Source: a virus. From it: a DNA stretch of 49,425 bases. The DNA lies in IMG/VR virus record IMGVR_UViG_3300042894_005638, positions 1 to 49,425 of that record. One strand, given 5' to 3'. The position numbers and the translations under genes are program-made. Positions 1,728-36,486 of this stretch are shown here, in pieces (positions within the stretch are counted from its first letter, which is position 1; each line of letters starts with the position of its first letter). The notes under the pieces were generated by a model. The model ran no database searches. It worked only from the letters and a program-made list of their open reading frames with translations, and was not told the origin of the DNA.

Positions 1728-1731
1728 ATCA

Positions 1732-3271: not shown

Positions 3272-3323
3272 ATTAATAAATATGTTGAAAAGAGTTAAAA
3301 TAAGGTTTTGAACTTATTTTTTG

Positions 3324-3408
3324 AGTAAACGGTCAGATTCGAACTGACGGGAGACTTTCGTCTATCGGTTTTGCAGACCGACGGTTTCAACCGCTCACCC
3401 ACGTTTAC
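3324..3408 (-). tRNA. tRNA-Cys (GCA), class II body
   Basis: Acceptor GUAAACG/CGUUUAC, anticodon stem UCGGU/ACCGA with loop CUGCAAA (anticodon GCA), T arm GUCAG/CUGAC. The discriminator is U, the base expected for Cys. Unusually there is a long variable arm (AGAC-GAAA-GUCU) and a Ser-like D arm, so this is a class II tRNA with Cys identity. Confidence 0.85.
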
Positions 3409-3413
3409 ATAAA

Positions 3414-3866: not shown

Positions 3867-3883
3867 ATCTTTTATTTTTGTTG

Positions 3884-3959
3884 TGGAACCATACGGAGTC
3901 GAACCGTAACCTGTGGATTTTCAGTCCACCGTGACACACCATACTTACACCATAGTTCC
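3884..3959 (-). tRNA. tRNA-Phe (GAA)
   Basis: Anticodon stem GUGGA/UCCAC, loop CUGAAAA (anticodon GAA); T arm UACGG/CCGUA; acceptor GGAAC/GUUCC with weaker inner pairs; discriminator A. It begins one base after the stop codon of the gene at 3960-4454. Confidence 0.9.
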
Positions 3960-4454
3960 TTATTTAATTTGAAATGCGAATCTAACAACACGTTTCTTTT
4001 TAACTGAATCTTCCCAGTTACCAATAACAACACCGTCCTTAATTGTAAAAGCGTGTCCTTTAACAAGAATGAAGAATGTCCCAACAGGATTTTGTTTCAC
4101 AAAAGTTCCAACAGTCATATCTCGTTTAACCACACCATTTTTAGTTTTAACATCATACCTTAAAGTGTAACTCCCAAAACCATTTGCACTACCAACACAT
4201 TTAACTCTCTTGTAGTTAATTTGTTTTCTTTGATTTGCAAATGTTTTCATTTTGGTAACCGTACCATAAGTTCCTTGACGGTCTTTACGTCCAAATTTCT
4301 CCTTAACAAATTTATGTGCGTAATCATATGAAACATCAAATGATGAGGCAAATGCTCTTACAACACAATCATTTGTTTCTCCTCTCGCAATTACAGAATC
4401 ACTATAACCCTTAATCGCCTTTCCTGTTGTACAATATGGTAGTCCTTCTTTCAT
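3960..4454 (-). CDS. Papain-like cysteine peptidase-like protein
   Basis: 164 aa. The order of candidate catalytic residues fits a papain-like fold: Cys in ETNDCVVRAFAS near residue 25, His in KGHAFTI near 138, then Asn in VIGNWEDS about ten residues later. No signal peptide. The start is the ATG at 4454, not an in-frame Met five codons upstream, because TATCTTTG ends four bases before it. The promoter is the same host-like type as that of the 1422-1727 gene, so early expression is likely. Whether it is an active protease, a deubiquitinase-like enzyme or an inactive homologue cannot be told from the sequence. Confidence 0.6.
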   Translation of the reverse strand: MKEGLPYCTTGKAIKGYSDSVIARGETNDCVVRAFASSFDVSYDYAHKFVKEKFGRKDRQGTYGTVTKMKTFANQRKQINYKRVKCVGSANGFGSYTLRYDVKTKNGVVKRDMTVGTFVKQNPVGTFFILVKGHAFTIKDGVVIGNWEDSVKKKRVVRFAFQIK

Positions 4455-4458
4455 ATCA

Positions 4459-4489
4459 CAAAGATACAAAAAATTATTAAACCACCAAA
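4459..4489 (-). promoter_or_regulatory. Host-type promoter of the 3960-4454 gene
   Basis: Minus strand TTTG-N19-TATCTTTG (TATCTTTG at 4466-4459), then GTGAT and ATG. The last 13 bases before the start codon are the same as in front of the gene at 1422-1727. Confidence 0.75.
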
Positions 4490-4500
4490 ATTAATTTTTG

Positions 4501-4571
4501 CACGTGGTGTAGGAATCGAACCCACCCAGCGAGGTTTTGGAGACCTGCCCGACACCATGTCTGTACCACGT
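4501..4571 (-). tRNA. tRNA-Trp (CCA)
   Basis: Acceptor ACGUGGU/ACCACGU, anticodon stem AGGU/ACCU with loop CUCCAAA (anticodon CCA), T loop UUCGAUU, discriminator G as usual for Trp. Confidence 0.9.
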
Positions 4572-4577
4572 ATAGTG

Positions 4578-4650
4578 TACCCCCAGCGAGATTCAAACTC
4601 ACAACTCTGAATTCGTAGTTCAGGGTTTTATTCTATTAAACTACAGGGGT
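4578..4650 (-). tRNA. tRNA-Arg (ACG)
   Basis: Acceptor ACCCCUG/UGGGGGU, anticodon stem CUGAA/UUCAG with loop CUACGAA (anticodon ACG, to be edited to ICG), T arm GUGAG/CUCGC, discriminator A. Confidence 0.88.
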
Positions 4651-4785
4651 AATTAAAGAATTTTGGTCAACCACTCGCATCCCACCAATCTCTTGTATCA
4701 AACTTTTTGTAGTCCAAACGATTATATCTCCTACGACTCATTCTCAACTCACTTGCCAAAGCCTTGTCCGTTGTAAATTCTTTTT

Positions 4786-4860
4786 GGGTGAATAATGGGA
4801 ATCGAACCCATGGCACAAGGAACCACAATCCTATGCTCTACCTACTGAGCTATATCCACC
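4786..4860 (-). tRNA. tRNA-His (GUG)
   Basis: Acceptor GGUGGAU/AUUCACC, D arm GCUC/GAGC, anticodon loop UUGUGGU (anticodon GUG), T arm AUGGG/CCCAU. The discriminator is C, the His identity base. The base before the 5' end is U, so the extra G(-1) is not plainly encoded. Confidence 0.88.
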
Positions 4861-4869
4861 ATATATTTG

Positions 4870-4953
4870 CGGAAAGTATTGGAATCGAACCAAATACCCG
4901 AAGGTACATCTCGCTTAGCAGGCGGACCCTATCGCCATCAAGGTTTACTTTCC
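4870..4953 (-). tRNA. tRNA-Ser (GCU)
   Basis: Acceptor GGAAAGU/ACUUUCC, anticodon loop CUGCUAA (anticodon GCU), class II variable arm GUACC-UUCG-GGUAU, T arm UUUGG/CCAAU, discriminator G. Confidence 0.87.
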
Positions 4954-4957
4954 ATAG

Positions 4958-4995
4958 AGTGTGGTAGGACTGCAGTTCCTTGGGGATCCCACACT
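4958..4995 (-). other. Stem-loop between tRNA-Ser and tRNA-Ile
   Basis: A perfect 7-bp stem AGTGTGG/CCACACT closes a 24-nt interior that contains an AGGA-ACUGCAG-UCCU hairpin with a 7-nt loop. It looks like an acceptor stem joined to a T-like arm without D and anticodon arms. There is no U tract, so it is not a simple terminator. Candidate tRNA remnant or processing signal. Confidence 0.35.
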
Positions 4996-5012
4996 ATTTA
5001 TTCCCCTTTTTG

Positions 5013-5085
5013 TGTTCACGACGGGTTACGATCCCATTACCTCTTGTGTATCAGACAAGTGCTCTACCAATTGAGCTACGTGAAC
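5013..5085 (-). tRNA. tRNA-Ile (GAU)
   Basis: Acceptor GUUCACG/CGUGAAC, D arm GCUC/GAGC, anticodon stem CUUGU/ACAAG with loop CUGAUAC (anticodon GAU), discriminator A. The T loop (GAUCGUA) is less canonical. Confidence 0.87.
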
Positions 5086-5091
5086 TTATTG

Positions 5092-5163
5092 CGGAATAGG
5101 AAGGGATCGAACCTCCGACCTTCAAGTTAACAGCTTGTTGCTCTACCTCTGAGCTACTATTCC
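5092..5163 (-). tRNA. tRNA-Asn (GUU)
   Basis: Acceptor GGAAUAG/CUAUUCC, D arm GCUC/GAGC, anticodon stem CAAG/CUUG with loop CUGUUAA (anticodon GUU), T loop UUCGAUC, discriminator G. Confidence 0.9.
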
Positions 5164-5171
5164 TTTTTTTG

Positions 5172-5254
5172 TGGGAGAGGAGGGACTCGAACCCCCAAGG
5201 TCTCACGACGACGGATTTACAGTCCGCTGAGCCAACCAATTGCTCAACTCTCCC
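5172..5254 (-). tRNA. tRNA-Tyr (GUA)
   Basis: Acceptor GGGAGAG/CUCUCCC, anticodon stem CGGA/UCCG with loop CUGUAAA (anticodon GUA), class II variable arm, T arm GGGGG/CCCUC with loop UUCGAGU, discriminator A. Confidence 0.9.
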
Positions 5255-5273
5255 TTAAACCATACAATTAAAT

Positions 5274-6122
5274 TTAATTTGGTAATTCGTTTTTAATCCT
5301 TGTTTCTAACATAGAAATACAATTTTTATTAACATCAAAAACTATTGAATTTCTATTAGTTTCTTCTGACGCTATTGCGGTTGTACCACTACCTGAAAAA
5401 TAATCAACAATTAAATCACCTTCATTAGAACTTGCCAAAATACATTTTTTAACTAAATCCTTTGGTTTTTGAGTGTTGTGTTTTTGTAAGACATTTTGAG
5501 GTGTTTTTTTTGTCTTTGCGTAGGACTTAACTTCGTTCATACTCCAATAAGGAACACAGAACTCATCCCATAAATTACCAGGATATGTCATCCTAACTTT
5601 TTTTCCATTTTCATCAACCCACCAATCTTTTGGTGTACCATCTTCATTTCTATAAGGAGCAATTACTTCCTTTTTAACCATAACCTCATTTATATTAAAG
5701 GTATAGTTTTTTTGATTTTTTGTTGCGAAAAAAATATCTTCGTGAATTGATTTCCAGTTAGTTTTAGCACCTCTTCCTTTATCCCTTTTCCATGTTATTC
5801 TGTTTTGTACATAGAACCCAACCTCCTCCAGTACCTCTTGAACAATATTTGATGTTTGCCATTGTATGCACACATATATCGAACCATTAGGTTTTAGTTG
5901 TTCGTAAGCTAACTGTAGATATACTTTAGTCCATTCTTTATAGTCGTCTTTAGACTTCCACTGTTTGTCCCAATCTTGTCTATCACCCAATTCCAAGTCA
6001 AGATTCTCATTTTTACCTCCACTTATATAATAAGGTGGATCTAAAAAAAACATATCTACAGTCTCAACACCAATTATATCCTTTGATTCTATAAAAGATT
6101 TATTATAATACTTTATACCCAT
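5274..6122 (-). CDS. DNA methyltransferase (beta class)
   Basis: 282 aa, an S-adenosylmethionine-dependent amino-methyltransferase. The catalytic motif IV DPPYYISGG is at residues 28-36 and the AdoMet-binding motif I DYFSGSGTTAIAS near 238, so the motif order is that of the beta group (N6-adenine or N4-cytosine; DPPY favours adenine). Length is normal for the family. Its start overlaps the end of the upstream gene by ten bases, so the two are translationally linked. That neighbour looks like an endonuclease, which suggests a small type II restriction-modification pair rather than an orphan methylase; target sequence unknown. Confidence 0.88.
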   Translation of the reverse strand: MGIKYYNKSFIESKDIIGVETVDMFFLDPPYYISGGKNENLDLELGDRQDWDKQWKSKDDYKEWTKVYLQLAYEQLKPNGSIYVCIQWQTSNIVQEVLEEVGFYVQNRITWKRDKGRGAKTNWKSIHEDIFFATKNQKNYTFNINEVMVKKEVIAPYRNEDGTPKDWWVDENGKKVRMTYPGNLWDEFCVPYWSMNEVKSYAKTKKTPQNVLQKHNTQKPKDLVKKCILASSNEGDLIVDYFSGSGTTAIASEETNRNSIVFDVNKNCISMLETRIKNELPN

Positions 6123-6703
6123 TTTAATTTATCCTTTTCAATCATTTTTATACGATCATCGTGATATTTTCTAACAATACTTTTTAGAGTAGAAAACCAT
6201 TCTGTTTTACCAATATTGGTGAATATTGGTGCTTTATTCATGTTAGATATTTGTAATTGTCCTTTACCTAATGAACCAACCCTCAACATATCAAAAGATA
6301 ATTCCCACACATATTTAACGTCAATTGATTCTATATTAACTAATTTATCACTTACACGGTAAGAAACAAAAACATAGATTAGGTTTCCATTTTTGGAAAG
6401 TAATAATTTTCTCAACTTCTCAACAGATGTAAGATTAGGCATAGAAAATGAACTATCTACATTATGAGACTTTGTATCTATATAATATTTAATATCATCA
6501 TTATCAATAACTGTAACATCCTCTATAGATTTTTTACTTCTAGGTTCCAAACACTTTTTTATATTTTCATCATCACTTAATGACATTAAAATATTTTTCA
6601 CTTTGAATTCGATGATATCCCCAACGGTTCTTTGTTCGCCACCATCTTGGATTTCAAAATTAGTCATTTCTAAAAGTAGTTTTTGTTCGATTAAATTTTT
6701 CAT
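6113..6703 (-). CDS. Putative type II restriction endonuclease
   Basis: 196 aa. No family is recognised with certainty. A PD-(D/E)xK-like core can be seen: Glu in DIIEFKVKNI near residue 35, then EDVTVIDNDD followed by a strand with YIDTKSH (D-x-K) near 100. It overlaps the methyltransferase start by ten bases and shares its promoter, the normal layout of an R-M operon. The ATG at 6703 is preferred over the in-frame ATG at 6724, because the promoter element TATTTTTG at 6735-6728 would put the transcript start near or beyond 6724. Alternative: a control or accessory protein of the methylase. Confidence 0.5.
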   Translation of the reverse strand: MKNLIEQKLLLEMTNFEIQDGGEQRTVGDIIEFKVKNILMSLSDDENIKKCLEPRSKKSIEDVTVIDNDDIKYYIDTKSHNVDSSFSMPNLTSVEKLRKLLLSKNGNLIYVFVSYRVSDKLVNIESIDVKYVWELSFDMLRVGSLGKGQLQISNMNKAPIFTNIGKTEWFSTLKSIVRKYHDDRIKMIEKDKLKWV

Positions 6704-6727
6704 TTTGTTTATGTTTATTAGTTCATA

Positions 6728-6758
6728 CAAAAATAAGTAAAAAAATCAATTACACAAA
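6728..6758 (-). promoter_or_regulatory. Host-type promoter of the R-M pair
   Basis: Minus strand TTTG-N19-TATTTTTG, a full match to the Bacteroidota consensus, placed about 25 bases before the chosen start of the endonuclease-like gene. Confidence 0.7.
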
Positions 6759-6778
6759 ATTTAAATTAATTTTTTTTG

Positions 6779-6852
6779 TCCCCCCGACAGGACTCGAACC
6801 TGTACTCTTCCGATTAAAAGTCGGAAGCTTTAACCAATTAAGCTACGAGGGG
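6779..6852 (-). tRNA. tRNA-Lys (UUU)
   Basis: Acceptor CCCCUCG/CGGGGGG, D arm GCUU/AAGC, anticodon stem UCCGA/UCGGA with loop CUUUUAA (anticodon UUU), T arm ACAGG/CCUGU, discriminator A. Its 5' ten bases overlap the end of the HNH gene at 6843-7430. Confidence 0.9.
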
Positions 6853-7430
6853 TTTTGTTTGTCATACTTGTCACTTTCCATAACAATTGTTTTTATTTGT
6901 TTATTTAATTTATTTCTATATTCATCAATTTTTCCCATAATCTCATCTTTATATCTTGAATGGGCATACTGATGATGTGTCGGACATAACGGTATCAAAT
7001 TTTCAATTGAATTGTTATTGTGGTTTTCGTCATAATGATGAACAGCAACTATTTTATTCTCACCACATACAACACACTCCTTTTTATGGTGTTCAAAACA
7101 AATTCTTCTATAATGGTTTTTATCTCCTGAAATATTCCCATAATTTGGGTTATTTTCCCCTGATCTGAAATATGTGTTTGAACAAGAATAAGAACAAGTA
7201 GTTTTTTCCCTTTTATGATTAATCATAGTTTCAAATTTATTTCCACAGACTGGACAATCTTTTATTTTTCTTTCATACAAAAAAGGACGTTTACTTAAAT
7301 GTGTTATATCAATATTATTTTCATTTACATATTTATGAAACTTTCTTCTTGATGTCCCATTATCATATCCATATAATGAAATGATTGCCTGTGATTTTGT
7401 TTTACTATTTTTAATTAATTCATTTTCCAT
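6843..7430 (-). CDS. HNH endonuclease
   Basis: 195 aa. An N-terminal helical segment is followed by a Cys4 knuckle (CPVCGNKF...CSYSCSNTYF), then an HNH core: CVVCGENKIVAVHHYDENHNNN, IENLIPLCPTHHQYAHS, with the His-His pair, Asn and final His expected for a beta-beta-alpha metal nuclease. The ATG at 7430 is chosen because a TATTTAT box lies just upstream, while earlier in-frame starts would run across tRNA-Pro. The stop codon TAG lies inside the 5' end of tRNA-Lys, so gene and tRNA overlap by ten bases. Likely a free-standing homing endonuclease. Confidence 0.82.
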   Translation of the reverse strand: MENELIKNSKTKSQAIISLYGYDNGTSRRKFHKYVNENNIDITHLSKRPFLYERKIKDCPVCGNKFETMINHKREKTTCSYSCSNTYFRSGENNPNYGNISGDKNHYRRICFEHHKKECVVCGENKIVAVHHYDENHNNNSIENLIPLCPTHHQYAHSRYKDEIMGKIDEYRNKLNKQIKTIVMESDKYDKQNPS

Positions 7431-7493
7431 ATAAATAAATATCATCATTTGTCGTAAAAACCACATTTGTCCAAAAGTTTTATATACGATAGT

Positions 7494-7562
7494 CGAATGT
7501 GTACGAATCGAACGTCTCCCGAATGTCCCAAACATCCTGTGCAACCATTACACCACACACTC
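7494..7562 (-). tRNA. tRNA-Pro (UGG)
   Basis: Acceptor GAGUGUG/CACAUUC, anticodon stem GGAUG/CAUUC with loop UUUGGGA (anticodon UGG with G37, typical of Pro). The T stem is weak (three pairs) although the loop UUCGAUU is canonical. Confidence 0.82.
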
Positions 7563-7574
7563 GTTATTTTTTTG

Positions 7575-7660
7575 AGGAAGAAGTAGGTGTCGATCCCAAT
7601 ACCCGTCAAGGTACCGCCCGTTTTCAAGACGGGGTCACAGGCCGCTGTGATTCATCTTCC
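7575..7660 (-). tRNA. tRNA-Ser (UGA)
   Basis: Anticodon stem CCCGU/ACGGG with loop CUUGAAA (anticodon UGA), class II variable arm (GGUACC...GGGUAU). Odd points: the acceptor has a mismatch at the seventh pair, the discriminator is U rather than G, and the T arm pairs poorly. It may be weakly functional. Confidence 0.75.
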
Positions 7661-7666
7661 TTATTG

Positions 7667-7737
7667 TTGTCTCGGCTGGACTCGAACCAACACACTCGGA
7701 GCCAAAATCCGATGCCCTGCCTTTAGGCTACGAGACA
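7667..7737 (-). tRNA. tRNA-Gln (UUG)
   Basis: Acceptor UGUCUCG/CGAGACA (U1-A72 as in Gln), anticodon stem UCGGA/UCCGA with loop UUUUGGC (anticodon UUG), T arm GUUGG/CCAGC, discriminator A. Confidence 0.88.
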
Positions 7738-7746
7738 ATTTAATGC

Positions 7747-7762
7747 CAATATGTCAAAGAAC
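7747..7762 (-). promoter_or_regulatory. boxA-like motif between tRNA genes
   Basis: Minus strand GTTCTTTGACATATTG, identical to 1759-1774, lying in the 37-base gap between tRNA-Thr and tRNA-Gln. No -7 element follows, so antitermination within a tRNA transcript fits better than a promoter. Confidence 0.5.
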
Positions 7763-7774
7763 GTTTTCTTTTTG

Positions 7775-7846
7775 AGGTCCTTGTCGGAACTGACCCGACA
7801 ACTCAACTTTACAAGAGTCGTATTTTTCCTGTTAAACTAAAGGACC
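7775..7846 (-). tRNA. tRNA-Thr (UGU)
   Basis: Acceptor GGUCCUU/AAGGACC, anticodon stem CGACU/AGUUG with loop CUUGUAA (anticodon UGU), T stem GUCGG/CCGAC. The T loop GUCAGUU departs from UUCRANY. Discriminator U. Confidence 0.82.
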
Positions 7847-8119: not shown

Positions 8120-9829
8120 TTATGCAACAACAGTATACTTGTCCCAATTTTTTAAGACACCTTGCATAAGGTTTGTATCATTATTTACACTATACCAACT
8201 TTTTGCTGGACCTATTTTACTTGTCCAATACTCATTTCCAAATTTTGCAAAGTAATTATTTTTACCTTTTCTTAAATCCCCAGCTTTAAGTATTTCTGCT
8301 TTTGACGCTAAGTTAGTCTTTTTCAGATAATTTTTATAATATTTTAATCCTTGTTCTGTTGCTTTAAGTGCTTTTTGTAATGGACCTCCTTTCCATCTAC
8401 TTAAAAATACACCATAATCACCAGCAAGTGCTTCTTTTACATTATTTTTTACTTTTTTCTGTAAAGCTTCTTTTTTAAAATCACTTAAACCTTTTCCGTC
8501 TACATAATCTTTGGCACTTTTTACAAATCCTTTTAAGTCACTATTAACACTATCTTTATATTTCTCAACTAACTTCATTGCTTTAGCCTCAACTTTATCT
8601 AATTTAGCACCTGTTGCAATCTTTTTTGAAATTTTATTCATTGTTTCAACACCGATGTTTTTTATCACTGGTATTCTACTTACAAATGGTAAAATTGATA
8701 AACCTAATGTTATTGCAGCTTCAGTTCCCTTACCTTCATAATAATAAATTCCTGCATCAATCGTTCCAATACCTGCAGCAATAATCGGTCCTGCTATTGG
8801 GATTAGATATGAAAAAACTTGTGCCAAGGCTAAAACATCGTGTATTGAAAAGACAAAGCCTCCATCTCCGACATAACTGACACCACATCCTCTTACCAAT
8901 GGTTTACTTCGGATTATACTCATTATCTTATATACATCTGTTGTTCCTGCAGAATCAACATATAGTCGTCCATATAAATTATACCAACCATCTTTTGAGT
9001 AATATGTCTTAGTAGTAAAATTGTTTTTTATATCTTTCATAAAATCAACACCACCCCAAATCATGTCCGCAGAATAAAATCCCCAAAACATATCACTGAA
9101 GTCATCTGGTTGTCCTGAAATATTCTGTTGTCCACCATTTTTTCCTCTAAAATTTTTCCATAAAGTCTCAAAACTAGAAAAATCATAAGAATTTAATAAC
9201 TGATTATCATATCTTAAACCGTTAGCCGATTTATTTTCCCTTAATCCAACACCAAAACAGTTGTTTATAGTTCCCTCACCCTTTCCGTTATTAAATCTAT
9301 TCTCAAATATCATCCTATTTATTTTTTGCATTGACATAAATGCCGCAATATTAAAATGTTGTGATGCCGAATCTGCTTTAGCATCCCACCCTAACATACC
9401 CTGATCTTTTAGAAACTGTTTATTTCTTGTATAATCTTCACTATATATGTATTTTACTGGTGAGTTACTCGCATCTTTAAAAAGACTACCCTCAAGTCTT
9501 CTCTCTTTTAATGTTTTACTGTCCTCTACGTATTTTTTATTGAAGTAGGCGTTTAGTTTTTCAACTAATTTTAAATCACTTACACCATTATATGGTGGTT
9601 TACTTGTTGTTGACCAAAATAATTTAGCAAAAACTTGTTTTTTTGTTTTTGGACTATACATTTGTGAGTTCTTAATGATAGAATAGTTCTTACCATCTTT
9701 AATTGGATTAGTGAAAGTTACTGCGGTGCCTTTAAAATCATCGCTATTTGCATTCAGAACCCAAGTAAAGTGTGGACTTGATTCAAGTAACAAATAATTA
9801 TATTGACTTTCACTAATCAAAATTTTCAT
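8120..9829 (-). CDS. Leader-bearing large virion-type protein A, 569 aa
   Basis: Starts with MKILISESQYNYLLLE/S, the MKIIITESQY leader ending in an LLE site. Residues 20-320 show no family I know; two short W/Y-rich stretches recur (FWGFYSADMIWGG, DGWYNLYGRLY). Residues 328-392 form a hydrophobic Gly/Ala-rich module (IPIAGPIIAAGIG, then YYEGKGTEAAITLGLS, then PVIK) that also appears in the proteins at 9862-11517 and 17607-20027. The C-terminal third is Lys-rich and helical. A TATTTAT box ends four bases before the ATG. Inference: packaged in the capsid and ejected with DNA, the hydrophobic module helping it cross a membrane. Confidence 0.8.
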   Translation of the reverse strand: MKILISESQYNYLLLESSPHFTWVLNANSDDFKGTAVTFTNPIKDGKNYSIIKNSQMYSPKTKKQVFAKLFWSTTSKPPYNGVSDLKLVEKLNAYFNKKYVEDSKTLKERRLEGSLFKDASNSPVKYIYSEDYTRNKQFLKDQGMLGWDAKADSASQHFNIAAFMSMQKINRMIFENRFNNGKGEGTINNCFGVGLRENKSANGLRYDNQLLNSYDFSSFETLWKNFRGKNGGQQNISGQPDDFSDMFWGFYSADMIWGGVDFMKDIKNNFTTKTYYSKDGWYNLYGRLYVDSAGTTDVYKIMSIIRSKPLVRGCGVSYVGDGGFVFSIHDVLALAQVFSYLIPIAGPIIAAGIGTIDAGIYYYEGKGTEAAITLGLSILPFVSRIPVIKNIGVETMNKISKKIATGAKLDKVEAKAMKLVEKYKDSVNSDLKGFVKSAKDYVDGKGLSDFKKEALQKKVKNNVKEALAGDYGVFLSRWKGGPLQKALKATEQGLKYYKNYLKKTNLASKAEILKAGDLRKGKNNYFAKFGNEYWTSKIGPAKSWYSVNNDTNLMQGVLKNWDKYTVVA

Positions 9830-9861: not shown

Positions 9862-11517
9862 TTAACCCCTATCTCTCTTTGTTTGTTTTGTTACGGCACT
9901 TGTTACATAACCTGATTTTTTAGGTTGTGATGTTGCCGCTAAACTTGGTGCTTGAATTGCCTGTTGAGCTGTAGCCGGAGGTGCTGGATTTGCTCCTTGT
10001 TTGGCAAAATGTTTAACAGTTGTACTACCTTTTGTAGGCACACCTGCATAGTTGATAAGAAAATCCCTTCCTTTACTTATGAGTTCATTTTTAGCAACAT
10101 CCGTCAAACCTTCAGATGTTGATGAGTTGAAGTTCTTTTTGAATCCTTGGGTTTGTTGTTGCCACCAACTTCCAGCTGTCTCATTTTTTGCTGTTTGTAT
10201 TTCAGCTTTTATTTTATTTTGATATTTTAAAATATCTTTCCATAATTTACCTTCTGCTTTATCTAAAGGTAGTTTAGATATTATTTTTTTACTCAATGTT
10301 TTGAATGTTGCATCGGCATACTTTTTTACAAAAGGTAGTTTAGACGCTAAAGGTAAAAAACTTAACACAAAGGTAACTGTTGCCATACCAGGTTTTCCTT
10401 CTTTATAGTATCTTGCGGCTTCAGTCGTACCTAATGCAATAAAAAGTGGTATTGCAAAAGGTCCTGTGAATGCTGCGGCAATATTAGCAAGAAAATACTG
10501 ATTATGTTTGTCTGATAACCAATCAGTGACAGGTTTTACTACTTCTACATATCGCTCATAACTACAATCAAATATAGGTTTTGTACTTATTTGTGATAAA
10601 ACCTCACCTAATTTATCATTACCATATAATCCTTGCCAAAAAGAATAGTAACCATCAGGAAATAATGGTGTTTTGTACCCTTTTGATTTATCTTTTAGGG
10701 TATTCGCATCTTTAACTAAATCTGAATATTTAGCTATGAACTCTATACCCATATAAACACCAGCATATCCTTTTTTATACTTGGCTTTAAACATTTTTTT
10801 ACCTTTTTCGGCTAAACTTCTACCTGTGGCATTACTAAAATCAACCACTCTACTTGAATCTGTCCTCTCTATTGTACTCCCTGGTTTTATATATTGTTTT
10901 TCAGTTGATTGATCATAAGACATACACCCTGTATTACCATTTGTAACTCTTTCTATTCTTAATGTCACCATTCTCAATGCTTGTAAAACAACTAATGCAG
11001 TATGATGGTTTTGATTAACTGGTATTTCTATTTGTTGTTGATCAACATTAAAAAACCCTTTACTCATCAACCATTTTTTTTGATATTCAAAGGCCACACT
11101 TTGTGAGTATGGTACGGTTTCACCTTTTGTATTTTTGTAGGTTGATGTTTTATCGTATTTGTTAGTTAAAGATTTTTTATCTAAATTTGCTTGACCACAC
11201 ACTTTGGATAATAACACATTTGATAAAGTTTTTGATTTTTCAGTACCATTTGCATTTGATGGTCTATTATAAAATCTTCCAGTACCACAATAGAATATTG
11301 TTGACGGAACATTTTTCCCACCCTCAATTCTGTCTACAGATGCAATATTTTTATTATTCCAATAGTGTGCGGTAAATTTTGTTCCTTTTGGTATTTTTAT
11401 TTTATTACCACTATCTGATGTAAAATAATTATCCTGTGTAGTCGTATAAGTGGCATTTGTTTCTGTTGCTTCACTTATAATTTTTTTTAATTGACTTTCT
11501 GTAATAACTATTTCCAC
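9862..11517 (-). CDS. Leader-bearing large virion-type protein B, 551 aa
   Basis: Begins at a GTG codon; the first residues (M)EIVITESQLKKIISE/A match the leader family and end at an ISE site. A GATATTTAT box lies about 14 bases upstream. The central part (residues about 335-405) repeats the hydrophobic module of its downstream neighbour at 8120-9829, with the shared pattern YYxEGK...LSxLPxxSxxPxxK, so the two are distant paralogues. The C terminus is Ala/Pro/Gln-rich and probably disordered (PAPPATAQQAIQAP). It precedes the 8120-9829 gene by 32 bases, which contain that gene's own promoter box. Confidence 0.8.
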   Translation of the reverse strand: MEIVITESQLKKIISEATETNATYTTTQDNYFTSDSGNKIKIPKGTKFTAHYWNNKNIASVDRIEGGKNVPSTIFYCGTGRFYNRPSNANGTEKSKTLSNVLLSKVCGQANLDKKSLTNKYDKTSTYKNTKGETVPYSQSVAFEYQKKWLMSKGFFNVDQQQIEIPVNQNHHTALVVLQALRMVTLRIERVTNGNTGCMSYDQSTEKQYIKPGSTIERTDSSRVVDFSNATGRSLAEKGKKMFKAKYKKGYAGVYMGIEFIAKYSDLVKDANTLKDKSKGYKTPLFPDGYYSFWQGLYGNDKLGEVLSQISTKPIFDCSYERYVEVVKPVTDWLSDKHNQYFLANIAAAFTGPFAIPLFIALGTTEAARYYKEGKPGMATVTFVLSFLPLASKLPFVKKYADATFKTLSKKIISKLPLDKAEGKLWKDILKYQNKIKAEIQTAKNETAGSWWQQQTQGFKKNFNSSTSEGLTDVAKNELISKGRDFLINYAGVPTKGSTTVKHFAKQGANPAPPATAQQAIQAPSLAATSQPKKSGYVTSAVTKQTKRDRG

Positions 11518-23670: not shown

Positions 23671-24288
23671 ATGAAGATTATTCTAACTGAAAGACAATAT
23701 AAGAATTTGATTTATGAAAATATATCAAAAGAAAGTACAAATAAATTAAAATCCTTAATGGACTTCTTTAAAGGAGTATCAAAAGACACAAAAGAACAAG
23801 TTGGTTTTGATTTAAGTTTTTTAGTTACTTGGGGAGCAAGTATTGCAGGATTTGTAAAACCTGTTTCTGATTTTATTGCGGGAGAATATCCTGAATTGTC
23901 ATCAACTGATTTGGCTTTGATTACAACAGGTGCCATTCTTACTTACTTCACCTCAAATAAAGAAAAGTTAGGTAGAGTTTTAGAAAAGATAAAAGAAAAA
24001 TTATTAATTGCAGAATTTGATCACTTTCTAATGAAATGTGAGGACTTAAAAAATGCGTTTTTTGGTTTTATTGAAAGTTTGGCAATCCCGTTTACAAAAG
24101 TTTCAAATATGCTTGCATATACTTTTATTATTCCAATAATTCCTCAATTATATGAATTAGCACAAGGTTATGGTGACGCAGAAATAAGTGAGATTGTGAA
24201 AAGAATTGTAATGTTCCTCTCCGTAAGTTTTTCCGCAAATATTATTAAAAGATTGATGCATTCAATAGTAAAAAGATTCAAATCTTAA
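23671..24288 (+). CDS. Leader-bearing membrane protein, 205 aa
   Basis: MKIILTERQYKNLIYE/N is a clear type A leader with an IYE end. Hydrophobic segments follow near residues 50-65 (FLVTWGASIAGFV), 80-95 (LALITTGAILTYF), 140-160 and 170-190, separated by Lys-rich helices. The combination of a capsid-targeting-like leader and membrane helices is also found in the larger proteins A-D. A TATTTAT box sits five bases before the ATG. Its end overlaps the convergent gene at 24285 by four bases. Possibly inserts into the host inner membrane after ejection; inference only. Confidence 0.78.
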   Translation: MKIILTERQYKNLIYENISKESTNKLKSLMDFFKGVSKDTKEQVGFDLSFLVTWGASIAGFVKPVSDFIAGEYPELSSTDLALITTGAILTYFTSNKEKLGRVLEKIKEKLLIAEFDHFLMKCEDLKNAFFGFIESLAIPFTKVSNMLAYTFIIPIIPQLYELAQGYGDAEISEIVKRIVMFLSVSFSANIIKRLMHSIVKRFKS

Positions 24289-25290: not shown

Positions 25291-25343
25291 ATAAATAAAT
25301 ATTGTGGTTGATTGTAATTGGAAATATAATTATACTTTCCCAT

Positions 25344-25751
25344 ATGGAACTATTAAACACACATCCGATTAAAAAATCCGACTTGGGGTTCCACGGAAAT
25401 CTATTTGGTGGAAAATTACTTGCTTGGATTGACGCTTCTGCCGCAGGTTACGCTATGCAACTTTGTGATTCACCAAGAATGGTTACTGTGTCAATTGATA
25501 AATGTAATTTTGAGAAACCTGCAAGAGAAAGTCAATTATTAAAAATTTACGCTAAACCAAAAGAAATAGGAAATACTTCTATTACTTTATATATGGAGGC
25601 AAGATCACATAACGTTTATACAGGAAGACAAGTTTTAATATTGAAAACTAATATTAAATTTGTTCACATAGATGAAGAGGGAAATCCAATACCTATTGGT
25701 GAGAAAGGAAAAAACAGAATAAATAAATTAATATTACAAGAAGAAATATGA
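25344..25751 (+). CDS. Acyl-CoA thioesterase (hotdog fold)
   Basis: 135 aa. Residues 14-32 (LGFHGNLFGGKLLAWIDASA) match the active-site region of YciA/BACH-type hotdog thioesterases, with HGNLFGG and the catalytic Asp of WIDA. A second conserved part is VTVSIDKCNFEKPA. These enzymes hydrolyse acyl-CoA to free acid and CoA in the cytoplasm. The ATG at 25344 is chosen on the family's usual start; the upstream region holds a weak host-type promoter (TATACTTT). It overlaps the GMP reductase start by four bases, so the two are made together. Unusual in a phage. Confidence 0.85.
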   Translation: MELLNTHPIKKSDLGFHGNLFGGKLLAWIDASAAGYAMQLCDSPRMVTVSIDKCNFEKPARESQLLKIYAKPKEIGNTSITLYMEARSHNVYTGRQVLILKTNIKFVHIDEEGNPIPIGEKGKNRINKLILQEEI

Positions 25752-26704
25752 GAAGATTTGACTTTGACAACATTACATTAATTCCAAAATACAGTTATAC
25801 TCAAAGTAGGAGTTTTTGTTCAACAAGTGTGGAGTTTGGTGATAAAATTTTTAAATCCCCAATTATACCCGCAAATATGGAAAGTATAATTGATCAAAAA
25901 CTTGCAGTTGAGTTAGCAGAAAAAGGATACTTCTATATCTTACACAGATTTGGTGTGGATAATTATAGATTTGTAAAATCAATGAAAGATTTTAATCTTA
26001 TTTCATCCATATCCGTTGGGGTTAATCAAGAATCACATACTCTTATAGAAAGATTAGTTTCTGATAATTTAATTCCTGATTTTATCACAGTTGATATTGC
26101 ACACGGACACTCAACCAAAATGAAAGAAATGGTTCACTTTATTAAAGAGATGATGCCCAACGTATTTCTAATTGGTGGTAATGTTTGTACACCTGAAGCC
26201 GTAACAGATTTAGAAGAATGGGGGTGTGATGCTGTTAAATGTGGAATCGGTGGTGGTTCTGTATGTACAACCTACCACTCTACTGGTTTTGGAAATCGTG
26301 GTTGGCAAGCGAGTATGATTGAGGAATGTTCTAAAGTTGCCAAAAAACCAATAATTGCTGACGGTTCAATTAAACTAAATTGTGATATAGTTAAAAGTTT
26401 AGCTTTGGGTGCATCAATGATTATGATTGGTGGAATGTTGGCGGGTTATAATGAATCACCTGGTAAATTAACTCAAAAGGGTAATGATTGGTATAAAACA
26501 TTTTGGGGTTCAGCATCTGTAGAACAAAAAGGAAACTCAAGAAGGGTTGAGGGGATTAAAACTCTTATTCCTTACAAAAGTGAGTCAATTTTCACAAAAC
26601 TTAAAGAAATTGAGGAATCACTTCAAAGTGCGATTTCATATGCTGGTGCAAACCCTGCAACATTAGAATGTCTTAAGTTTGTGGATTACGCGATTGTAAA
26701 TTAA
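25748..26704 (+). CDS. guaC: GMP reductase (IMPDH/GMPR family)
   Basis: 318 aa. The N terminus (FDFDNITLIPKYS) and PANMESIID match the family. The catalytic loop is GIGGGSVCTT with the nucleophilic Cys near residue 176, and the phosphate-binding part is IIADGSIKLNCDIVKSLALGASMIMIGG. There is no CBS domain and the C terminus is EGIKTLIPYKSES, which favour GMP reductase (GMP to IMP with NADPH) over IMP dehydrogenase. Somewhat shorter than bacterial GMPRs, about 325-345 aa. Linked by a four-base overlap to the thioesterase. It probably remodels purine pools during infection. Confidence 0.85.
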   Translation: MRRFDFDNITLIPKYSYTQSRSFCSTSVEFGDKIFKSPIIPANMESIIDQKLAVELAEKGYFYILHRFGVDNYRFVKSMKDFNLISSISVGVNQESHTLIERLVSDNLIPDFITVDIAHGHSTKMKEMVHFIKEMMPNVFLIGGNVCTPEAVTDLEEWGCDAVKCGIGGGSVCTTYHSTGFGNRGWQASMIEECSKVAKKPIIADGSIKLNCDIVKSLALGASMIMIGGMLAGYNESPGKLTQKGNDWYKTFWGSASVEQKGNSRRVEGIKTLIPYKSESIFTKLKEIEESLQSAISYAGANPATLECLKFVDYAIVN

Positions 26705-29068: not shown

Positions 29069-29617
29069 ATGAAAAGAGTAAGATTAACAGAGGGTGATTT
29101 GATTAGGTTAATTAAAAAGGTTATATCTGAACAAAATGTAGCAACACCAACTGAAAATAAAGAAAGTAAAAAGAAACAACCGCCAAAACCAAGATGCATT
29201 CCTGAAAATATGATTCCATTGGATGAAATAGTAGGACAAGCTGATGAATTTGTTAAATATTCACCAGGTGTTAGTAAAAGAAGAATGGGGGTTAATTCTA
29301 TGGTAGATACATTAGGTATTCTTAATAATATCAGATTATTTAAGGATGTTAAAGACGGAGGAACTCATTTAGCGTATGATATGATGAATAATCTTAATCG
29401 TTTCAGAAATAAAAACTATTACGATGAAACTACAGGTGAATGTCATAAAGCAATGGATAAAATAACAGAATTATACAAAGAAAACGAGCACGGTACAGAA
29501 CTTGTTAAAGACATTGAGAGAGTTCTTAACCTTCAAACTAAAGATGATGAATACACACCATCTCCAAGAGCAAAAGAATACTTAAAACAGTGTGTCAACC
29601 TTGTAAAAGGGCAATAA
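29069..29617 (+). CDS. Leader-bearing protein, 182 aa
   Basis: MKRVRLTEGDLIRLIKKVIS then E/Q gives a very clear type A leader, closely matching that of the gene at 41221-41616 (RLTESDLARIIRRVIKE/S) although the bodies are unrelated. A Lys/Pro-rich linker follows, then a helical domain without known relatives. A CATATTTAT box lies 15 bases before the ATG and a strong terminator follows the stop, so it is a single-gene unit. Inferred internal virion protein. Confidence 0.8.
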   Translation: MKRVRLTEGDLIRLIKKVISEQNVATPTENKESKKKQPPKPRCIPENMIPLDEIVGQADEFVKYSPGVSKRRMGVNSMVDTLGILNNIRLFKDVKDGGTHLAYDMMNNLNRFRNKNYYDETTGECHKAMDKITELYKENEHGTELVKDIERVLNLQTKDDEYTPSPRAKEYLKQCVNLVKGQ

Positions 29618-30413: not shown

Positions 30414-30854
30414 ATGAAAATATTACCCATTTTAAGTGAAATAATAGACAAAAAAGTCCTTATTTCTGCCCTAAAATCAATGGATTATAGTGAAAAAGAC
30501 GCTAAAAATGAACTAAAATACCATTTAGAAAGGGTAAAAAACCTTCCAGAAACACTAACAGGATACCGAATTTTGGTTGTAAATGACAAAAAAGACATCA
30601 ATTTAGATGAAATTGGCTCACATTTTAGTGAAAATAAGGTAGAATTATTGTCAAATCACTCATTTTGTACTGGTTGTGGGGAAAAATACTTCCTAATTAC
30701 GGCAAAAATACCAAAAAAAGAGGTAGATTTACAAGAAATGATTAAAAATAACATACTTTACCCAAATGAACTTGAGATTACAGTAAAAAATAAGGGAAAA
30801 AACGTAAAAATCGTCAAAATTCAGGAAATTAATACTGAAAATGACGATTTTTAG
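30414..30854 (+). CDS. Putative ADP-ribosyltransferase-like protein, 146 aa
   Basis: I recognise a layout seen in marine phage proteins: LTGYRILVV with Arg near residue 48, a Gly/Ser-containing middle, and IKNNILYPNELEITVKNKGK with an E-x-E near 118-120. Arg...ExE is the arrangement of R-S-E mono-ADP-ribosyltransferases; the middle STS motif is not clear. The start MKILPILSE/I is a short leader-like sequence with an LSE site. T4 Alt is likewise an ADP-ribosyltransferase packaged in the head through such a leader. A TATTTAT box lies four bases before the ATG. The enzymatic call is tentative. Confidence 0.55.
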   Translation: MKILPILSEIIDKKVLISALKSMDYSEKDAKNELKYHLERVKNLPETLTGYRILVVNDKKDINLDEIGSHFSENKVELLSNHSFCTGCGEKYFLITAKIPKKEVDLQEMIKNNILYPNELEITVKNKGKNVKIVKIQEINTENDDF

Positions 30855-31148: not shown

Positions 31149-33371
31149 TTATCTTACAAGTGTTAAATGTCCGTGTTTAACCACTCTTTTATCGTTTTCA
31201 AGCACACCAAACTCAACAACCCAAGTATAAACACCTTCTTGACAAGGTTTTCCGTTGTATGAACCATCCCAACCAGTAGATGCATCCTTTGATACCCATA
31301 CTATTTCTCCCCAACGGTTTAAAACAGTCATTTCAAAGTCGTAAGGGTCGTATCCTTGTGTAAATATTGGTTGCCACACTTGATTTACCTCATCACCATC
31401 AGGTGTAAACGTATTTGGAATGAAAATTAACTCTTGTGGACAGAATTGGATAGATACATTGTAGGTTTCAGGATAAGAAACACACCCATTTTCAGTTGTA
31501 ATAACACTAAATGTGTAAAACCCCTCTTGTTCCCATGTTAAATTGACATTTTGCGACTCAATTGTGTCCCCAAACACGTACCAAGTGTTCAATCCACCTG
31601 TTCCTAAAGTATTATATGTGTTTGTAAGATTTTCTCCTTCACATACTTCACTATATTGGTATTCTGTCGCACCTAAATTATTAATTACGTTGTCAATAAC
31701 AGGACGTGGATAGACAATTACCGTAGTATTCACATCAAAAGTACAATTTGATTGTGTATAAGAGTAATTTATTGGGTTATTTCCCGTTACAGTTGAGTCA
31801 GGACAGAACTGATTACCAATAACATTAGGACCAAAGAACACACCACCCAAAGGATTACCAATTAATGTTACACAACTACCATATTCACACATAGGAAGTA
31901 TGGTATCTATTGTCGGTTGCAAGTTAAACACAAGAATTTCAAAGGTTTCTGGTAAACTTTCACATCCATTTACATCAACACCTATTACTTCTAACATATT
32001 TGAGTACAAACCACCAGTAACACCATTAACATTTAAGTTAATATTGTCAGTTCCTTGTCCTTGATTAATGGAACCATTGGTTGTTGTCCAATTGTATGTT
32101 AGGTTTGTAAAGGTACTTGACACATTGTAAGGGTTAAATTGTGAATTAAAACAAACTGTGTCGGAACCTGTAATAGAATTGATGGTAATTTGTGGTGGAT
32201 TATTAATTGTTATAGTAGAACTATACGTACATCCTGCCGCATCTACCATATTATAAGGGTATATACCTGCACATAGGTTAGAAACATTAAATGAATTACC
32301 TAAAGCACCCCAAGATATGTTAATTGTTCCATTTCCACCATTAGGTGTTACCACAACAGAGCCATCACAATCATTATAACAAGTGGGATCTACAGTTACA
32401 ACGGTTGGTGTTGGTAAATTTGGTGGACCTGGTTGTACAAATACCGTATCAGGGATTGCACCTGGTGCCCCATTACAAGTAGCCCACCCCGCATTACAAG
32501 AAGGGTATGTTAATTGACACGTATAGTTAGCGCCTGCGGTAGGAGGAGTTACATTTATTGAAGGTCCAGTCCCGATTGGAATGGGATTTCCTACTTGATA
32601 CCAAGTAAGTGTAGGAACTACGGGAGGTCCACTTGGATTATATCTTACTGCGTCGTTATTTGCTGTCCATTGTGTTGAGTTTCTACCTACAACTGTTACA
32701 GCAGCTGTACCTGCTAAATTGTGTAGTCCCTGAACCGCAGTACCACCTGCCCATGCAGGACAATTTGGTTTTGATTGTATGTAATTTTCAATAACATTTG
32801 ATGATTCATAAATAACAATATGAAATGTTCCCTGTAAATTTGTACAAGAAAACATAGGAACCCCAATCCAACTAACAATAAGTTTTCTACAAGGGGCTGT
32901 TCCTTGTACCTGATACCTTATTTGTCCGCCAACACCAGGGTGCCAATCTTGCCAAGGGCCCATAATACAATTCTTTGGTGTATTAATATTGTTTGTTGGT
33001 ATTGTTACGGATGTGAAGGTTGTTGGTTGTGCTGTACTAAATGAAATCCACCCGTTGGAACCAACCCAAAATTGTGAATATGTCTGCCCATAAAAACAAA
33101 AGTTAAATCCAATATTAAATGGACCTTGTTGTGAGTCATCAGACATAAACAATTGTGTTCCCGTATTGTTTTGAGCAACATATGGAATGTTCTGAACTGT
33201 ATAATTTGTAGTTTGATTTGGGTTATTTCCTCCCCCACATTGACTTAAGTCAGCTGTTAATGTTGTAGAGTTTACACCACAGGGTAAAAATTGATCTGGA
33301 CCCAAAAAAGGACACAATTGTGAATAAACAAAACTGTGTAAAAATGCGAATACTATTATTAATCTTTTCAT
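31149..33371 (-). CDS. T9SS type B secreted multidomain protein, 740 aa
   Basis: Residues 1-18 are a signal peptide. Residues 80-245 hold a beta-rich domain with VGSNGWISFS and IVIYESSNVIENYI, common in Bacteroidota surface proteins. Immunoglobulin-like stretches follow, with a SprB-type repeat near 327-390 (DPTCYNDCDGSVVVTPNGG). Residues 649-740 are a gliding-motility C-terminal (CHU_C) domain: FIPNTFTPDGDEVNQVW, LNRWGEIVW, TGWDGSYNGKPCQEGVY. That is the type B sorting signal for the T9SS, so the protein should cross the outer membrane through host machinery. The upstream box AGTATTTATAAG-TATG marks it as a phage-controlled gene. Confidence 0.9.
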   Translation of the reverse strand: MKRLIIVFAFLHSFVYSQLCPFLGPDQFLPCGVNSTTLTADLSQCGGGNNPNQTTNYTVQNIPYVAQNNTGTQLFMSDDSQQGPFNIGFNFCFYGQTYSQFWVGSNGWISFSTAQPTTFTSVTIPTNNINTPKNCIMGPWQDWHPGVGGQIRYQVQGTAPCRKLIVSWIGVPMFSCTNLQGTFHIVIYESSNVIENYIQSKPNCPAWAGGTAVQGLHNLAGTAAVTVVGRNSTQWTANNDAVRYNPSGPPVVPTLTWYQVGNPIPIGTGPSINVTPPTAGANYTCQLTYPSCNAGWATCNGAPGAIPDTVFVQPGPPNLPTPTVVTVDPTCYNDCDGSVVVTPNGGNGTINISWGALGNSFNVSNLCAGIYPYNMVDAAGCTYSSTITINNPPQITINSITGSDTVCFNSQFNPYNVSSTFTNLTYNWTTTNGSINQGQGTDNINLNVNGVTGGLYSNMLEVIGVDVNGCESLPETFEILVFNLQPTIDTILPMCEYGSCVTLIGNPLGGVFFGPNVIGNQFCPDSTVTGNNPINYSYTQSNCTFDVNTTVIVYPRPVIDNVINNLGATEYQYSEVCEGENLTNTYNTLGTGGLNTWYVFGDTIESQNVNLTWEQEGFYTFSVITTENGCVSYPETYNVSIQFCPQELIFIPNTFTPDGDEVNQVWQPIFTQGYDPYDFEMTVLNRWGEIVWVSKDASTGWDGSYNGKPCQEGVYTWVVEFGVLENDKRVVKHGHLTLVR

Positions 33372-33732: not shown

Positions 33733-33895
33733 TTAATTCTTCCTCAATTAATGGTATTATTCTTTTATTATATGGTGCTTTGAGAAAATAATTCTCACCA
33801 TCGTTTCTAAAAAAACACCAACCACTCAAATGAGGTTTAAGATTCTCATAAGTTTTTTTGTCTTTAAACTTAAATGTCGTTAATCCCACCACCAT
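33698..33895 (-). CDS. Hypothetical protein, 65 aa
   Basis: MVVGLTTFKFKDKKTYENLK with a compact alpha/beta composition. It overlaps the upstream gene at 33880-34458 by 16 bases and ends inside the convergent gene. The order of three overlapping minus-strand genes from 35417 suggests one transcript. Function unknown. Confidence 0.6.
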   Translation of the reverse strand: MVVGLTTFKFKDKKTYENLKPHLSGWCFFRNDGENYFLKAPYNKRIIPLIEEELIIELSQQMSEQ

Positions 33896-34458
33896 TGCAT
33901 CCTTTCTTTTAATATATTAAACAATAAATTTTTTGCCTTTTCTTGGTTATGTAATGATACATAAAAACATAAATCTTTTTTACTTATTTTCCCTTTTCGT
34001 TTCAATACACAACGTACACTTGATGGGTATTTTTTTAAGTATTCATCGTACCTTTCAGAAATAACTTTAATGTTGCAACTTTTTAAATCGGGGAATCCCT
34101 CAACAGGTTCAAATACCCACTCCGATTCTTCATAATCAAGATATTCTGTATTGTAATACTCCTGTTTAACTCTTTCAATTAAATTCAAAACAATTGTCAT
34201 ATCACGATTTTCTCTTTCAACACCATTATATCTGTTTGAGTAGGTAATTTCTTTTCTTTGGTGTTCTATCTTTTTTTGAAGAATAGTAAAAATATAATTA
34301 CTATCCCAATCCCTATCGTGATATAAAGTGGGTATCCATCTTATTATGTTTTTGATTCCTGTAAGAAAATACCTTATTCTCCAATTAAGTTTTCTCCATA
34401 ATGGGTTTCTACTCCAAGCGGAATCTTCAGGTATTGGTAGTTTTTTGTAATTTTTCAT
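33880..34458 (-). CDS. Conserved-type phage protein, 192 aa
   Basis: A Trp/Arg-rich opening (NPLWRKLNWRIRYFLTGIK, then WIPTLYHDRDWDSNYI) followed by long amphipathic helices. This opening resembles a widespread family of unassigned phage proteins that I know only by sequence style. No signal peptide. It overlaps the 71-aa membrane protein upstream by 32 bases. Confidence 0.68.
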   Translation of the reverse strand: MKNYKKLPIPEDSAWSRNPLWRKLNWRIRYFLTGIKNIIRWIPTLYHDRDWDSNYIFTILQKKIEHQRKEITYSNRYNGVERENRDMTIVLNLIERVKQEYYNTEYLDYEESEWVFEPVEGFPDLKSCNIKVISERYDEYLKKYPSSVRCVLKRKGKISKKDLCFYVSLHNQEKAKNLLFNILKERMQWWWD

Positions 34459-34642
34459 CTTCTTTATCTTTCCACTCCAAATATACGGAAAAAATCATTA
34501 AGAAGTTAATAAGAACACATAAAAAAATTTCTAAAAGATAATGCCAATCAACTTGTGTTAAACTTACGTGTGTTCCAAACCACATAAATGAACCGTATTT
34601 GTTCATTAACTGAACAATTAAGTATCTAAAAAATTTAGGCAT
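34427..34642 (-). CDS. Small membrane protein, 71 aa
   Basis: A hydrophobic helix (YLLEIFLCVLINFLMIFSVY) lies near residues 35-54, with an amphipathic N-terminal helix and a charged tail (KDKEDEKLQ). Its start overlaps the end of the lysozyme-like gene by eight bases, so it is translated from the same mRNA. A membrane protein coupled to a wall hydrolase suggests a lysis or entry role; inference. Confidence 0.6.
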   Translation of the reverse strand: MPKFFRYLIVQLMNKYGSFMWFGTHVSLTQVDWHYLLEIFLCVLINFLMIFSVYLEWKDKEDEKLQKTTNT

Positions 34643-35417
34643 TTTTTATAAGGTTTGCGACTTTACTTTTGTTAAGTAATCCTGTGCTAGATCTATCTTG
34701 TATCGCAAGTTCAATAAGTTGTTTGTCCGACATTCCTTTTTTAACACCCTTTTCTAAACTATTTGCAAATTTCTTAAAAAACCCAGGTCCATTCCAAGTT
34801 GCATATGACATATGTAAAAGTAATCCACGATTTCCTTTAATTCTCCTTTCAGTTTCAGCATCCACAAAATTGTCCATATTTCTATCAAAAGCATTTTTCA
34901 TTATTTTTGCCGCTAATGTTTTTAATTCTTCTTCATGTTCACCACCCCTGTAAAGCCATTTCCATTTTTTACAGAACTTATCCATTCCTAAATCTTCTTT
35001 TTGTTGATCTATGATTTCAAAAAATTCTTTACCGTCTTCCGTTCTTTCTATTGCCCCGTTGTATCTGTCAAGTCCGAACATTGTTTCGGTTGACCTACCC
35101 ATACCAGAACTTGGGTGTTTACATTTAGGGTTCCAATACCCACCTTCTAATTTGTCAATCACCTTTTTTGTTATAGACATCCAATCAGAATCAACATAAG
35201 ACTTACCCTTGGATGTTTTTGTTTCTTTTGATTTTTCACCTTTGAACTTATCTACGATATCAGACACTTTATTTTTTACATCGGCACCAGCATTACTGAT
35301 TTTTGTTAAAACATTTTTAGGTGTAATATCATCTGTGTTTGGTAAATCTACAACTTTACCCACAACATTTTTTATTAAATCAATTAACTCATTTTCTGTT
35401 AAAAATACTTTTCCCAT
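34635..35417 (-). CDS. Leader-bearing lysozyme-like protein, 260 aa
   Basis: MGKVFLTENELIDLIKNVVG is a type A leader, though its end site is less clear. After a Lys-rich linker, residues 80-260 look like a glycan hydrolase of lysozyme type: VIDKLEGGYWNPKC with a possible catalytic Glu near 91, then GMGRSTETMFGLDRYNG, and a C-terminal MSYATWNGPGFFKKFANSLEKG typical of such folds. A CATATTTAT box lies four bases before the ATG. A leader-tagged wall hydrolase would travel in the virion and could open the cell wall during entry rather than at lysis. The exact family is uncertain. Confidence 0.65.
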   Translation of the reverse strand: MGKVFLTENELIDLIKNVVGKVVDLPNTDDITPKNVLTKISNAGADVKNKVSDIVDKFKGEKSKETKTSKGKSYVDSDWMSITKKVIDKLEGGYWNPKCKHPSSGMGRSTETMFGLDRYNGAIERTEDGKEFFEIIDQQKEDLGMDKFCKKWKWLYRGGEHEEELKTLAAKIMKNAFDRNMDNFVDAETERRIKGNRGLLLHMSYATWNGPGFFKKFANSLEKGVKKGMSDKQLIELAIQDRSSTGLLNKSKVANLIKNA

Positions 35418-35955: not shown

Positions 35956-36486
35956 TTAATCATATTTTGGTTTATTTTTTTGAATTCTTGAACCAAACCT
36001 TTCATGTGTTGTTCTTAATTCTTCAATATAATCTTCCAAATACTTTCGTAAACCATTTATAAAATTCGTTATATTTTTTTTTGCGTCTTTATCATTAAAT
36101 GTTTCCTCTTTATAATGTAAAACTGTTCTCATTTTTTCAGTAAATGATTCTAGTTTTCTCATTAATATTTTACCTTTTAATATCAGTTCTTTTTCTGTGA
36201 AATCACGAAATAACCTTTTCATTGTTTGGTTCATATTTCCTATCACATCAAAAACTTCTTCTGAATAATCCTCAATATCATTGATACTTACATCATCATC
36301 TTTAAGTGCTACTTTCAACGCCCCTAACGTTGACATTAAATCGTTCAATAGATTAAGAAATTGTCCCATAGATTTTCCAGCGTGTTGAGACATAACAAAA
36401 AAGTCGTCATATCCTGCGGCTATTTCTGTGAGATTTCTCATCAGGTTTGAGAACTGTTCTTCAGTTATTTGATATTTCTTTCCCAT
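35956..36486 (-). CDS. Leader-bearing helical protein, 176 aa
   Basis: MGKKYQITEEQFSNLMRNLT then E/I is a type A leader with an LTE end. The body is almost entirely helical and probably a coiled coil (KSMGQFLNLLNDLMSTLGAL, then ELILKGKILMRKLESF). Its ATG overlaps the stop of the 38-aa gene upstream (TAATG), a sign of coupled translation. Ends at the bidirectional terminator. No family recognised. Confidence 0.78.
   Translation of the reverse strand: MGKKYQITEEQFSNLMRNLTEIAAGYDDFFVMSQHAGKSMGQFLNLLNDLMSTLGALKVALKDDDVSINDIEDYSEEVFDVIGNMNQTMKRLFRDFTEKELILKGKILMRKLESFTEKMRTVLHYKEETFNDKDAKKNITNFINGLRKYLEDYIEELRTTHERFGSRIQKNKPKYD

Follow-up and report, generated by a model that had tools for sequence, protein, structure and literature searches.

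A putative orphan type B T9SS substrate conserved among giant T4-like phages and its predicted route to the surface of infected Bacteroidota cells

Phage genes whose products carry sorting domains of the type IX secretion system (T9SS) were described in Cryophage, for which hijacking of the host machinery and superinfection exclusion were proposed (Bellas et al. 2020, PMC7468147), and T9SS-tailed proteins have also been noted in crAss-BACON phages (PMC6949934). The Cryophage cargo, encoded by a 76-kb phage and hypervariable between variants, consists of enzymes with type A tails plus a PA14 protein (PMC7468147). Type B tails are required for export, suffice for it and set the destination, and each needs a PorP/SprF shuttle; orphan type B substrates share such a shuttle, and 3 of the 12 type B genes of F. 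johnsoniae are orphans of this kind (PMC12618676). PorP-like proteins anchor type B proteins (PMC9143113). Phage T9SS cargo with type A tails, together with the hijack and superinfection-exclusion idea, has thus been known since 2020, and what is new here is a conserved family of type B orphans in T4-like huge phages. In the open-access literature we found no account of type B phage cargo, of a phage substrate that is an orphan and depends on a shuttle, or of such a family kept among T4-like giant phages.

The window analysed here is a linear IMG/VR virus record of 49,425 bases. Unlike the Cryophage cargo, its 740-aa protein is type B-tailed and stalked with a conserved head, and the family is carried by T4-like and 634-kb huge phages. 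The gene, its parts and its neighbours lie as follows.

31149..33371, minus strand: T9SS type B (CHU_C) protein gene, 740 aa, with an ATG start and 146 viral relatives
33321..33371, minus strand: Sec signal peptide (predicted), aa 1-17, leaving Gln18 as the mature end, from the invariant Q18 and a hydrophobic stretch
32427..33320, minus strand: conserved head, aa 18-315, 50-82% identical among phages and Bacteroidota, with an AF2 model
32180..32402, minus strand: SprB-like repeat, aa 324-397, from BLASTP to SprB repeats of phage proteins
31437..32426, minus strand: Ig/PKD stalk, aa 316-645 (PKD_6 at aa 395-452), from Pfam and from GhpA profile and structure matches
31161..31424, minus strand: type B T9SS sorting domain (CHU_C), aa 650-737, from CHU_C, TIGR04131 and invariant residues
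33376..33382, minus strand: TATTTAT promoter-like box, 11 nt before the ATG, from its frequency in the window and in relatives
30414..30854, plus strand: conserved neighbour, 146 aa, adjoining the gene in L002, L013 and L055 and the split version in a 296-kb phage
33880..34458, minus strand: conserved upstream neighbour, 192 aa, in the same position and strand in L002, L021, L056 and L072-L074

A preliminary description of the window, made from the sequence alone, had proposed an open reading frame with a CHU_C tail here, and both were confirmed: Pfam CHU_C matched aa 650-737 (E=5e-14) and TIGR04131 matched aa 651-740 (E=3.6e-12), each exceeding its curated cut-off, and residues N653, F655, T656, P657, N685, R686, W687, G688, W701, G703, G713, Y715 and G734 were invariant among aligned relatives. 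The signal peptide that it named is supported by a rule-of-thumb prediction, which found a Lys/Arg start and, in 43 out of 45 phage relatives, a hydrophobic stretch; the first 17 residues resemble a Bacteroidota signal peptide cut before Gln18, and Q18 is invariant across the aligned phage relatives. The protein thus combines the C-terminal CHU_C/TIGR04131 domain and the predicted N-terminal Sec signal peptide of a T9SS type B substrate, and its tail is of type B, not type A. In the Ig/PKD stalk PKD_6 matched at aa 395-452 (1.3e-7). The "SprB-like repeat" of the same description is fair wording for aa 324-397: in BLASTP this stretch aligned with repeats in two further phage proteins (3e-10 and 2e-8) that Pfam confirms as SprB, though the Pfam SprB model gave no score on the 740-aa protein. 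PHROGs held no family for it.

In its signal peptide, repeat stalk and CHU_C tail ending in Arg/Lys, the protein resembles the type B CTD adhesins of Bacteroidota such as SprB and Fjoh_1123, and like Fjoh_1123 (PMC12618676) it has no linked SprF-like gene. It differs from them in being phage-encoded, in its length of 740 aa and in that the phage records searched yielded no PorP/SprF. SprB, a giant SprB-repeat gliding adhesin of 669 kDa, is paired with SprF, whereas the phage protein has one SprB-like repeat and no SprF. The Ig/PKD stalk repeats are related in sequence and fold to those of Aureispira GhpA, a T9SS grappling-hook protein (PDB 9flp and others): the stalk profile matched GhpA in 14 stretches (E=3.9e-88), and VIA aligned the stalk with GhpA fragment 9fls at Z 11.7 over 307 residues (rmsd 10.9). 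GhpA, however, is 5898 aa long, a hook-forming size of several thousand residues which the 740-aa protein does not approach, and it gave no match to the head. Bacteroidota T9SS proteins with the same head, of which the nearest (L083-L085, L090, L092 and L094) are 58-70% identical to the window protein in the head, carry a CHU_C tail, but are mostly longer (817-1429 aa), come from genomes with many PorP genes and lie outside the phage clade.

The full-length structural model (mean pLDDT 80, pTM 0.39) appears reliable for the separate domains and not for their arrangement. Modelled alone by AF2 (pLDDT 89.6, pTM 0.84), the head is predicted to form an Ig-like sandwich, with a beta domain (~aa 55-245) inserted between its two halves. 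A named fold for the head was rejected, as none was given by PDB profile search, which returned no relative, by Foldseek (best E 0.086, no close PDB fold), by VIA, whose best match (Z 7.4) was confined to the Ig part and left the inserted beta domain with no clear PDB relative, or by BFVD, where the best matches were unnamed phage proteins.

Scanning viral contigs gave 146 relatives of the protein in IMG/VR, and among the best 80 of these 146, which were the ones examined, full-length relatives are mostly 731-745 aa, or ~818 aa with extra stalk. The huge phage LR745206 (634,780 bp) carries a relative with 51% identity over 98%; a study of huge phages reported a complete 634-kb genome and placed genomes >634 kb in the Mahaphage clade, with predicted replication in Bacteroidetes (PMC7162821). 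A T4-type Gp23 capsid gene was present on 14 of 20 long carrier contigs, and in one lineage our gene and the capsid gene share a strand, with ours ~20-60 kb upstream. The flanking gene order of the window was retained in L002, L012, L025, L048, L056, L072-L074, L077, L079 and others. This T9SS-tailed gene is embedded in a phage genome and is a genuine phage gene. Misassembly had been named as one thing that would overturn the preliminary description, and that worry is answered because relatives with the same flanking order occur in independent metagenomes; its statement that the gene is no stray host fragment likewise stands, on the phage clade described below, the synteny, the contigs bearing Gp23 and the copy in LR745206. 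Among capsid-bearing contigs >200 kb in one lineage, 3 of 3 had the gene (one split; two already known carriers). Its distribution is nevertheless patchy, which counts against the function proposed below: a number of long relatives that share the capsid type lack it, e.g. G050, G053 and G054 (129-156 kb), although these may be fragments. A "core gene of the phage family" is unsupported, as the gene is missing from several contigs of 129-156 kb in a second lineage.

The phage-type TATTTAT box reported upstream was also found, 11 nt before the ATG. The same box lies <=60 bp upstream of 24 of the 55 window genes, compared to ~2 expected, and precedes the gene in 33 of 74 phage relatives, with one subclade having a different start region. 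Boxes in the window favour two distances from the start codon, ~-11 and ~-21, and these two spacings might reflect two leader types or leaderless messages.

The closest relatives in genomes are T9SS proteins of Bacteroidota MAGs, and relatives L084 and L090 sit among ordinary chromosomal genes. In a head tree made by a quick method from rows picked by similarity, the 45 phage rows formed one clade (SH-aLRT 99) among 80 bacterial rows, for which the simplest reading would be a single old transfer from host to phage, then spread among phages. In the CTD tree the phage tails cluster, with at least 2 label changes forced on 92 columns, and they group with the tails of a few Crocinitomicaceae and Flavobacteriales, which the heads do not; exchange of tails with hosts is possible, if weakly resolved. 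The phage protein is under purifying selection, with a dN/dS between the window and L002 of 0.066 for the whole protein and 0.039 for the head alone; the other pairs gave 0.05-0.16 for the head and up to 0.44 for the stalk. In most pairs measured, constraint was stronger on the head than on the CTD, and the head is by far the better conserved of the two. Relatives were also seen in MAGs labelled Competibacteraceae and Sphingomonadales (L083; L130, L140 and L141), of which the L083 MAG is probably Bacteroidota or mixed, given 8 PorP-family matches in its genome.

Searching 20 phage records for a PorP/SprF shuttle gave none (0/20), and in the same search all of the 10 Bacteroidota genomes with relatives (10/10) yielded 5-22 PorP/SprF each. 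With this control working, a phage-encoded shuttle was rejected for the records searched; a linked shuttle gene, usual but not obligatory for type B substrates, was likewise not found in them. As these phage records yielded no PorP/SprF, the 740-aa protein appears to be a type B orphan, for whose export the translocon and the shuttle of the host would be needed. This agrees, at the level of sequence, with the earlier suggestion that the phage uses the host's own T9SS machine, given a type B tail and no phage-encoded T9SS partner found. In the route that we propose, Sec would move the phage protein into the periplasm, the host SprA translocon would take the CHU_C tail and a host PorP/SprF-like shuttle would collect the protein, because the phage brings none; a stalked adhesin would then stand on the infected-cell surface with its conserved head outward. 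From known type B biology, export and surface anchoring are highly probable, and the protein most likely becomes a surface adhesin of the infected cell. The gene has been kept across a lineage of related giant phages, and infection therefore probably alters the bacterial cell surface. Over much divergence, this phage lineage has kept a protein addressed to a secretion machine unique to its hosts. If the protein is exported, T9SS surface remodelling of infected cells becomes testable in laboratory flavobacteria, giant phages become linked to the biology of gliding and adhesins, and its orphan type B tail becomes a means to study the pairing of shuttles with tags.

Once displayed, the adhesin might occupy the type B shuttle or the gliding track, and/or its head might bind surface ligands, upon which the display of SprB-like adhesins or receptors would drop and superinfection of a cell infected by a slow giant phage would be limited. 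Flavobacterial resistance to phage V156 arises by mutations in gld/spr genes of T9SS and gliding (PMC9233685); that surface therefore matters for phage entry, and a phage protein placed on it could plausibly exclude other phages. Superinfection exclusion is thus a plausible, putative role, which the preliminary description had proposed beside receptor masking and attachment. As the specific use of the protein, a limit on superinfection through lowered adhesin or receptor display is the one that we tentatively favour over the others, at clearly less than even odds, and the whole chain from T9SS export to that limit comes only just short of an even chance. Linkage to other exclusion genes, which a superinfection role predicts, was not seen.

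The main rival to superinfection exclusion is adhesion for spread, whereby infected cells would adhere to one another, to particles or to new hosts and so raise transmission, as GhpA does for Aureispira. The stalk resembles GhpA by both profile and structure, and the head, which is the most conserved part, looks like a binding module; the GhpA likeness is, however, confined to generic Ig/PKD stalk repeats and the head profile has no PDB relative, and we consider this use unlikely. It is less likely again that the protein is a decoy or competitor whose CTD itself jams the shuttle and stops gliding or adhesin display, with the head mattering little. Such a role would suit an orphan type B CTD in phage records with no PorP/SprF, given that the CTD determines destination (PMC12618676), but would not lead one to expect a head far more conserved than the CTD and under stronger constraint in most measured pairs.

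A part for the protein in the virion, as a Hoc-like decoration or fibre of Ig domains with the T9SS tail as a relic, is very unlikely. Two relatives did match PHROGs weakly via their Ig-like parts (Hoc-like decoration, 3e-5; tail protein, 0.006) and the window gene has its phage-type promoter box, but signal peptide and CTD are retained family-wide under purifying selection, and a Sec-exported protein would quit the cytoplasm, where virions are assembled. That the gene belongs to a host, was joined on by misassembly or acquired recently, and has no role in the phage we regard as extremely improbable: relatives are common in Bacteroidota and local G+C is 0.34-0.39 against ~0.31 around, yet the phage clade has 45 diverse members, synteny holds in many independent contigs, Gp23 is on the same contigs and a huge phage has its own copy.

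To return to surface display through the host T9SS, a search for T9SS tails in other phages, as the preliminary description had suggested, gave type A tails above the cut-off in 7 of 22 records and CHU_C in 18 of 22, most of them selected for having CHU_C, with four copies in LR745206. Giant T4-like Bacteroidota phages may rebuild the infected-cell surface via the host T9SS with several proteins of their own, namely the orphan type B adhesin, a type A-tailed subtilisin and other type A-tailed stalk proteins, and the tails may suit the shuttles of particular hosts; we hold this reading to be somewhat less than evenly balanced. The sorting tail may serve as a clue to phage host range, and Crocinitomicaceae or other Flavobacteriales of fresh water are candidate hosts.

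In a 229-kb phage (L165:5629-7680, plus strand), a subtilisin that combines SprB repeats with a type A T9SS tail is encoded directly after the Gp23 gene, and the next gene encodes a 275-aa SprB-repeat protein that also has a type A tail. In the 296-kb phage (L254:854-2594, plus strand), the adhesin's stalk and tail regions fall into consecutive small genes (PKD, CHU_C) that come after a further small secreted protein, and each gene has its own signal peptide. In L264 (37-2789), L261, L263 and L266 a type A-tailed protein of ~640 aa comes before a conserved gene whose start is lipoprotein-like; the one such type A-tailed protein scanned had weak cohesin and dockerin matches. A CsgG-like identity, assigned by eye to the gene near the type A protein in L261, L263, L264 and L266, was dropped, Pfam (3/4) and PDB profile being negative. 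On the minus strand of L256 (154-2247), a 697-aa secreted-looking GEVED-domain protein matched the head profile weakly; in other phages the GEVED-domain protein sits directly after the capsid gene.

Within the window, six unrelated-looking proteins (8120-9829, 9862-11517, 23671-24288, 29069-29617, 34635-35417 and 35956-36486) share an N-terminal motif, M-x-x-x-hydrophobic-T/S-E-x-x-hydrophobic-x-x-L/I, which might be a virion targeting or processing tag. At 25302-26704 (plus strand) a thioesterase gene (4HBT), 80-82% identical in related phages, overlaps an IMP dehydrogenase/GMP reductase-like gene, and at one end of the window (297-7846, minus strand) 14 tRNA genes are interspersed with ORFs.
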